From: a bacterium BMS3Abin01
GTDB taxonomy: Bacteria; Actinomycetota; Thermoleophilia; BMS3ABIN01
Direction of reading: 5' to 3'
DNA length: 37,613 bases
NCBI GenBank assembly: GCA_002897715.1
Contig: BDUA01000037.1
Span: forward strand, 1-37,613
Made by a program: the position numbers and the translations under genes. Below, one piece after another: positions 29,554 to 30,804 of this stretch. The notes beneath the pieces are model-generated. The model ran no database searches. It was given only the letters and a program-made list of their open reading frames with translations, and was not told where the DNA came from. Each line of letters starts with the position of its first letter. Position 1 is the first letter of the stretch.

Positions 29554-29671
29554 CAGGAACGGGAGAATATGGACGGAGCCGGTTTGGGTTACGGTTGAGT
29601 CTAGTTCTGTTGGTGGGCATCCGGCAATCAGCCGGTAGGTAGGGGAGGCCTTCACAGGGTCTCGATCCTTA

Positions 29672-29687
29672 TCCCGTTTAAACGGGA
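29672..29687. promoter_or_regulatory. Perfect 16-bp palindrome TCCCGTTTAAACGGGA upstream of the 29707 gene
   Basis: Direct read; 19 bp before the ATG at 29707, just upstream of AAGGAG. Confidence 0.45.
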
Positions 29688-29706
29688 CGTAAAAAGGAGT
29701 GAAAGA

Positions 29707-30564
29707 ATGCAGAAAATCTACAGCGACATGGATTTACTCGACGCACTGAGGAGGGAGAGTGATGATGGTCTGATGGGACCCACCTATCACGGCTATCTCA
29801 AAGGGCCGAACCGTCCCAGCGCCGAGGCGATCAGGGCCCGATTCGGAGGTTGGACCAACGCTGTACGTAAGGCCGGCATGATTCCGGCGGCGCGCCGCAC
29901 CAATAAGGAAATGAGGAAGCTGGTCAAGATGGGCAAGGTGGATGCCAAGTACCCGGCCCTGAGAATGGGCATGAGCGTCCGCGAGCTTAAGGTATCGGTG
30001 GGGCTTGAGAAGCCACGCAAGCCGACCAAGGAGCGTTACATCGATGAAGGTGTGCGCATCGCCAGGAAATTGGGCAGAGCTCCCAATTTTCACGAGTTCA
30101 ACCGTTACACCAAGACGGTCACGGCGTGGAATCCATATCGCCTCTATGGCCGTGACTGGAAAGCATTCAAGCGGGATGTCGAAAAGCGTTTGAAGGAGAA
30201 GACCAAGGCCATACCCAAGGCCAAGGCCAAGACCAAAGCGAAGCCCAAGAGCAACGCCAAGGCAAAACCCAAGGCTAAGGCAAAGCCCAAGGCTAAGTCT
30301 AAGACTCAAGCAAAACCGAAGACCAAACCCAAGGCCAAAGCAAAAGCCAAGCCCAAGGCAAAGCCCAAGGCAAAGGCAAAAGCAAAGCCCAAGCCCAAGC
30401 CCAAGGCCAAGGCAAAAGCAAAAGCAAAAGCCAAGCCGAAGCCCAAGACTAAGACCAAAACTAAGCCGAAGGCTAAAGCCAAACCGAAGGCTAAAGCCAA
30501 ACCGAAGCCGAAGCCCAAGGCTAAAGCCAAGACCAAGGCCAAGACCAAGGCCAAGAAGAAATAA
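29707..30564 (+). CDS. Protein with N-terminal homing-endonuclease-associated-repeat-like segments and a C-terminal Lys/Pro/Ala-rich histone-H1-like tail
   Basis: SD AAAAAGGAG. LLDALRRESDDG...PSAEAIRARFGGWTNAVRKAGM resembles the HNH/homing-endonuclease-associated repeat pattern. Tail residues 165-285 are almost entirely K, A, P, T with no acidic residue. Confidence 0.8.
   Translation: MQKIYSDMDLLDALRRESDDGLMGPTYHGYLKGPNRPSAEAIRARFGGWTNAVRKAGMIPAARRTNKEMRKLVKMGKVDAKYPALRMGMSVRELKVSVGLEKPRKPTKERYIDEGVRIARKLGRAPNFHEFNRYTKTVTAWNPYRLYGRDWKAFKRDVEKRLKEKTKAIPKAKAKTKAKPKSNAKAKPKAKAKPKAKSKTQAKPKTKPKAKAKAKPKAKPKAKAKAKPKPKPKAKAKAKAKAKPKPKTKTKTKPKAKAKPKAKAKPKPKPKAKAKTKAKTKAKKK
30199..30561 (+). repeat. 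Degenerate hexanucleotide (AAGGCN/AAGCCN) repeats encoding the KAKPKAK tail
   Basis: Continuous AAGGCCAAG / AAGCCCAAG / AAAGCAAAA runs. Confidence 0.9.
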
Positions 30565-30597: not shown

Positions 30598-30626
30598 CAG
30601 CGGAGACCCGTGGTCTCCGCTGTTTT
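30598..30626 (+). terminator. Rho-independent terminator downstream of the Lys/Pro/Ala-tailed gene
   Basis: 11-bp perfect stem CAGCGGAGACC / GGTCTCCGCTG, CGT loop, then TTTT. Confidence 0.88.
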
Positions 30627-30675: not shown

Positions 30676-30804
30676 ATGATTTGTTCCGGCAGGAAACCCA
30701 GAAGACTCAGGACCCTGTTGTTCGGTATGATGGTCGGCCTGATGATCGGACTGATGTTTGCCCCTCGCCCGGGCACGGAGATCATCCAGAAGATCAGGGG
30801 CTGA
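30676..30804 (+). CDS. 42-aa YtxH-like membrane microprotein, absent from the supplied ORF track
   Basis: ATG 30676 preceded by CAGGAGG. MICSGRKPRRLRTLLFGMMVGLMIGLMFAPRPGTEIIQKIRG* has the YtxH-like G...G.L.APR.G pattern. Confidence 0.6.
   Translation: MICSGRKPRRLRTLLFGMMVGLMIGLMFAPRPGTEIIQKIRG

Follow-up and report, generated by a model that had tools for sequence, protein, structure and literature searches.

Lysine-rich tails resembling histone H1 are known in bacteria on HU, on AlgP and PhaF, on Hc1 and Hc2 and on some enzymes. In actinobacteria, Lys-rich tails have been described on DNA-binding proteins, and the sigma factor HrdB shows that a specific DNA binder can carry such a tail as well (PMC7398561). 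HU bears one in mycobacteria (HupB) and Streptomyces (HupS) (PMC5676037, PMC11229371). The tail of HupB is required for nucleoid association (PMC5676037), and stable DNA binding depends on the tail in both HupB and TopA (PMC5676037, PMC7398561). AlgP of Pseudomonas, which spaces polyphosphate granules, consists of a helical N-terminal domain followed by a 154-aa tail of KPAA repeats (PMC9239181). Hc2 of Chlamydia and BpH1 of Bordetella contain Lys-rich repeats and are each variable in length, and the H1-like Hc2 has been reported to bind RNA and to repress translation (PMC2848022).

The gene described here encodes an HNH-repeat protein with a Lys/Ala/Pro tail and lies at 29707-30564 on the plus strand of the window, the whole stretch of 37,613 nucleotides that was analysed, which comes from a draft genome of 1.5 Mb. 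Translation gave exactly the bounds first read, with the ATG at 29707, the TAA ending at 30564 and a product of 285 aa. The gene has its own Shine-Dalgarno sequence, AAGGAG at 29694-29699 (+), 7 nt 5' of the ATG. The sequence-only reading had also placed it about 2 kb from mihF, whose product matches PF22525 (H2TH_5), and the distance is indeed 2.2 kb, with mihF upstream. The "strong terminator" of the same reading stood in part: its 10-bp stem at 30599-30621 (+), followed by GTTTTC, is genuine, but the T-run 3' of the stem counts just four, and the hairpin is unlisted by the automatic terminator scan because that scan needs five. GC-rich hairpins of a similar kind lie 3' of the gene in most relatives. 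Beyond the terminator, a 42-aa ORF (window 30676-30804) has a weak match to YtxH (PF12732; 23.7 bits, below the cut-off), and a similar ORF start is also seen 3' of the gene at locus L021.

The HNH repeat family is known by name from DNA-cutting homing endonucleases, and the literature search yielded only a table of modelled repeats. A Pfam search with the 165-aa N-terminal part placed the protein in this family: residues 5-58 (repeat 1; 29719-29880, +) match PF18780 (HNH_repeat) with 44.4 bits and E 2e-11, against a curated cut-off of 26 bits, and all 14 aligned orthologs match it as well. Residues 102-165 by themselves give a sub-threshold match (18.5 bits, E 0.0027). In a profile comparison with hhalign, the whole domain is collinear with HNH_repeat proteins from the class that have three repeats (probability 97.6, E 5e-12, 159 columns), and we therefore read it as three repeats with a shortened middle one. 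The middle repeat covers about residues 65-104 (29899-30018, +) with three predicted helices, and repeat 3 covers residues 108-160 (30028-30186, +). Both repeat segments recognized in the initial reading hold, the second through this collinearity and its weak match to PF18780, but the shortened repeat between them had been missed.

No nuclease domain was found in the 285-aa protein by Pfam, NCBIfam or PADLOC, which agrees with the earlier failure to see an HNH, LAGLIDADG or GIY-YIG catalytic motif; HNH_repeat is its sole Pfam domain, and the HU domain PF00216 is absent from the Pfam result. The protein is a PF18780 member and is neither a homing endonuclease nor an HU protein. HNH-repeat proteins without a nuclease are common in the class, and the suggestion that the repeat was exapted from endonucleases gained no support in its original form. 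AlphaFold predicted three to four helices per repeat but left their packing uncertain (mean pLDDT 80.6, pTM 0.49); an AF2 model restricted to repeat 1 was of low quality (pLDDT 61). Repeats 1 and 3 contain invariant basic and aromatic residues. Sequence and fold searches of the PDB found no significant solved structural relative of the domain, and no match in the fold searches of PDB and viral structures reached E 0.001. The proposal that the repeats form a sequence-reading module gained no support. The PDB sequence match 8vd6 ("CAP repeat", E 2e-4) was discarded, as its score adds up five weak matches to short repeats that are almost the same.

The tail occupies residues 165-285 (30199-30561, +), which is exactly the longest stretch of the protein free of Asp and Glu. 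Its 121 residues (K59 A30 P18 T9 S2 I1 N1 Q1) fall mostly into KA and KPKA units, similar in composition to the KPAA type of AlgP/PhaF, and the H1/AlgP-like character first assigned to it is upheld. The tail does not look like a simple recent DNA expansion, since its synonymous codons are mixed (AAG 42/AAA 17; GCC 13/GCA 11/GCT 5/GCG 1) and the only period that TRF detected is 6 bp long, with 70% matches. Nor is it a matter of chance, because every complete ortholog keeps a Lys-rich tail, of 53-131 residues and a net charge of +21 to +68, while length and sequence drift and charge and composition are retained. Among about 60 other HNH_repeat reading frames of the class, some from overlapping loci, none has a Lys tail (at most six Lys per 50 residues), which suggests that the tail is peculiar to this one family. 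NCBIfam matches to EntB/EntC and TolA reflected tail composition only, far below cut-off, and were rejected. In three relatives (L022, L027 and L033) contigs break inside the tail or at its start, as expected of repetitive DNA, and contig ends at the tail are a likely cause of truncation or omission of the gene in MAG annotation.

The protein has the Lys-rich, H1-like C-terminal tail of HU, HupB and HupS, and like HupB and HupS, which are also actinobacterial, it would join a folded DNA-binding N-terminal domain to that tail. Whereas their N-terminal domain is HU, here it consists of HNH repeats, and the family's HU is a separate protein. AlgP and PhaF share a helical N-terminal domain, a long Lys/Ala/Pro repeat tail and an H1-like composition (PMC9239181), but their N-terminal domain is unrelated by Pfam. 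Hc1 and Hc2 of Chlamydia and BpH1 of Bordetella share the Lys-rich repeats (PMC2848022) but lack HNH repeats, whereas the tail here is attached to a highly conserved folded domain.

The genomes compared are MAGs, and the family set comprises 19 genomes of an uncultured Actinomycetota family, whose named relatives were deposited as Thermoleophilia, Gaiellales, Actinobacteria or Actinomycetes MAGs. The survey of the architecture in related genomes that had been proposed found the gene once in each of 15 family genomes; the remaining four have assembly gaps at the locus. In G013 the contig stops directly after the leader described below, in G001 coaBC and uvrC are truncated and on separate contigs, and in G014 and G018 both of these neighbours are missing. 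Gene order is fixed, with coaBC upstream in 13 of 13 named relatives and uvrC downstream in all 10 whose sequence reaches that far. The gene is a single-copy core gene of the family.

The mean amino-acid identity of the repeat domain to 13 orthologs is 89%, compared with 83% for both mIHF and RpoZ, 82% for HU (eight relatives) and 59-66% for Gmk, CoaBC, UvrC and RapZ. The share of fourfold-degenerate sites that differ is 61% in the repeat domain and 49-60% in the neighbours. As the silent sites have diverged like those of the neighbours, the conservation reflects purifying selection, the strongest in this gene neighbourhood, and not recent transfer. Outside the family, a search of 399 genomes of the phylum yielded two matches, one weak and the other close but partial. 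A 107-aa protein of another class (L120; G306 contig C42, 221-544) consists mainly of repeat 3, with about 90% identity over 51 residues; it has no Lys tail and lies on a 3.2-kb contig, 3' of a 53-aa Cys-rich ORF. This copy may stem from transfer or from contamination, and the evidence fits either. No relative was found in the viral contigs and phage collections searched, and none in the plasmid collection beyond a match in Halobacterium salinarum that is weak and covers 61 residues.

Directly upstream of the ribosome-binding site, the window contains three hairpins of a putative leader RNA, all on the plus strand: P2 (29621-29635; CCGGC-AATCA-GCCGG), P3 (29645-29663; GAGGCCTT-CAC-AGGGTCTC) and P4 (29672-29687; TCCCGT-TTAA-ACGGGA). 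Measured from the start codon, their stems keep a fixed distance in 13 (P2), 12 (P3) and 12 (P4) of 14 orthologs, against a mean of 1-2 in dinucleotide shuffles (1.8 for P2), in a position test whose zones were picked with the data already in view. Compensatory changes affect five of the seven modelled pairs of P3 and four of the five of P4. Alignments made by sequence alone misplaced the stems, which was corrected with a covariance model built from four in-phase sequences. In the resulting alignment of P3 and P4, which was fitted to the structure and is thus biased in favour of pairing, 98% of the cells are paired and 9 of 12 pairs show two-sided changes; moving the partner 1-3 columns along lowers the pairing to 31-60%. 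The leader has a conserved secondary structure with compensatory changes. Its folding energy is only moderately below that of shuffles (z -0.1 to -3.0), and the case for it therefore rests on covariation and position. The palindrome noted upstream of the gene is real, but it is P4, the last hairpin of the leader, and does not represent a conserved DNA site: pairing is kept in a stem whose sequence varies, and on these grounds a DNA operator was rejected.

The covariance model R1, which spans P3, P4 and the ribosome-binding region, matches 29635-29709 (+) with 35.7 bits, the sole match in the source genome. Across the family it finds one site each in 16 of the 19 genomes, 14 of them directly 5' of the gene. 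The match in G013 lies at the contig end, where the gene would start, and that in G018 is weak (E 0.19); the leader of G002 (L021) was missed in the family search and found in a smaller one (E 0.002), all these E-values being rough. By this model, confident occurrences are restricted to the upstream region of this gene. Leaders of ribosomal proteins under autogenous control likewise place covarying hairpins directly 5' of the start of one conserved basic protein, but no Rfam family reaches its gathering threshold on the leader described here. The conserved, folded leader probably provides dedicated control of the gene. The motif GGTAGG lies just 5' of P3 in the window (29638-29643) and in most relatives (leaders of L021-L033). 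A second copy adjoins the start codon in most relatives (AGAGAGGTAGGA), but the window departs from it there. The motif may serve as a repeated recognition site for a protein or the ribosome.

From its anatomy and conservation we infer that the protein works in a nucleoid-like manner. With moderate confidence we regard a lineage-specific nucleoid-associated, H1/HupB-like DNA-binding protein built on HNH repeats as the best explanation. The first reading had named a nucleoid or DNA-binding protein, and that suggestion is strengthened by the single copy, the exceptional purifying selection, the tail of every complete ortholog, the lack of Lsr2 and the tail-less HU, although DNA binding itself, like compaction, abundance and autoregulation, is here a deduction. 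The three small helical repeats would hold nucleic acid, most likely double-stranded DNA, while the disordered, strongly positive tail would add non-specific affinity and neutralize the backbone. The tail might thereby help to compact, coat or bridge the chromosome, as do the tails of HupB, HupS and histone H1. The transcript would start with the multi-hairpin leader, whose simplest reading is that the level of the protein is controlled, perhaps by the protein itself. Against a nucleoid role, Lys-rich tails also bind RNA and other polyanions, and the structure searches supplied no solved relative.

No Lsr2 was found in the 19 family genomes, where a control was detected. HU is encoded by a separate gene and is, in most of them, a tail-less protein of 92 aa. 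The presence of both HU and mIHF speaks against a nucleoid role, in that the protein does not obviously replace either. We interpret this as the Lys-rich tail, which HU carries in mycobacteria and Streptomyces, being borne here by a different protein. A second HU-type protein of 110 aa, with a short C-terminal extension containing Pro, Ala and Glu, was seen in G018 (L096).

Some ribosomal proteins stop their own translation by binding their own leader, and an RNA- or ribosome-associated protein might behave similarly here: repeats and basic tail would bind RNA, and surplus protein would bind the hairpins of its own leader and stop translation. The covarying hairpins directly upstream, found with confidence before this gene only, would be expected of such an RNA-binding, self-regulating protein too, and a conservation at least equal to that of RpoZ and HU would also fit, as would the activity reported for Hc2 (PMC2848022). 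We nevertheless consider this reading unlikely: the repeat family takes its name from DNA-cutting enzymes, the Lys-rich tails described in actinobacteria sit on DNA-binding proteins (PMC7398561), and neither Pfam nor NCBIfam matched a ribosomal-protein or RNA-binding domain.

Quite unlikely, in our judgement, is a sequence-specific regulator of a gene set, with the repeats recognizing a DNA motif and the tail doing no more than raise affinity. The helical repeats have a helix-turn-helix-like spacing in the predicted model, and the invariant basic and aromatic residues and the precedent of HrdB (PMC7398561) are compatible with it, but no conserved DNA operator was recognized at the gene's own promoter region, where the sequence of the palindrome varies, and the structure searches returned no significant helix-turn-helix regulator. 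The likeness to AlgP (PMC9239181) would suggest a granule organizer of the AlgP/PhaF kind, whose tail would link granules of polyphosphate or PHA to the nucleoid. This is very improbable: the N-terminal domain matches HNH_repeat and neither the AlgP nor the PhaF family in Pfam, and the polyphosphate role in particular is unlikely, since none of the 19 genomes has a match to either family of polyphosphate kinases (PF02503, PF03976), although controls were detected. A degenerate homing endonuclease or some other kind of selfish element, which the name of the repeat family and the lone repeat-3 copy on a short contig of another class might evoke, is hardly credible and already contradicted by the fixed synteny, the single copy, the strength of purifying selection and the plasmid, viral and phage searches.

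The nucleoid reading can be extended to a tentative proposal, possible at best: that a new type of bacterial chromatin protein has formed around the HNH repeat, in its lineage no less conserved than HU and IHF, that it bears the H1-like tail found on HU in other actinobacteria, and that it sets its own level by binding a dedicated leader RNA. An H1-like tail on HNH repeats was seen here in this family only. If the proposal is right, a lineage is able to gain a core chromosome protein built from an unusual domain, restricted to one family and equipped with its own leader RNA, and a function could be assigned to the HNH repeat family. Through the leader, self-regulation by a chromatin protein becomes open to direct testing.

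Tail-less three-repeat HNH_repeat proteins of about 230 aa from other families of the same class share the collinear domain and the lack of a nuclease, but they have about 25% identity, no Lys tail, no covariance-model match to the leader nearby and, where checked, different neighbours. They often occur once per genome. Such a protein is present in most f4 genomes and in some other families of the class (L016, L049-L078, L107-L113), and in G026 (L107) a sigma-factor-like ORF, recognized by eye, lies near its gene.
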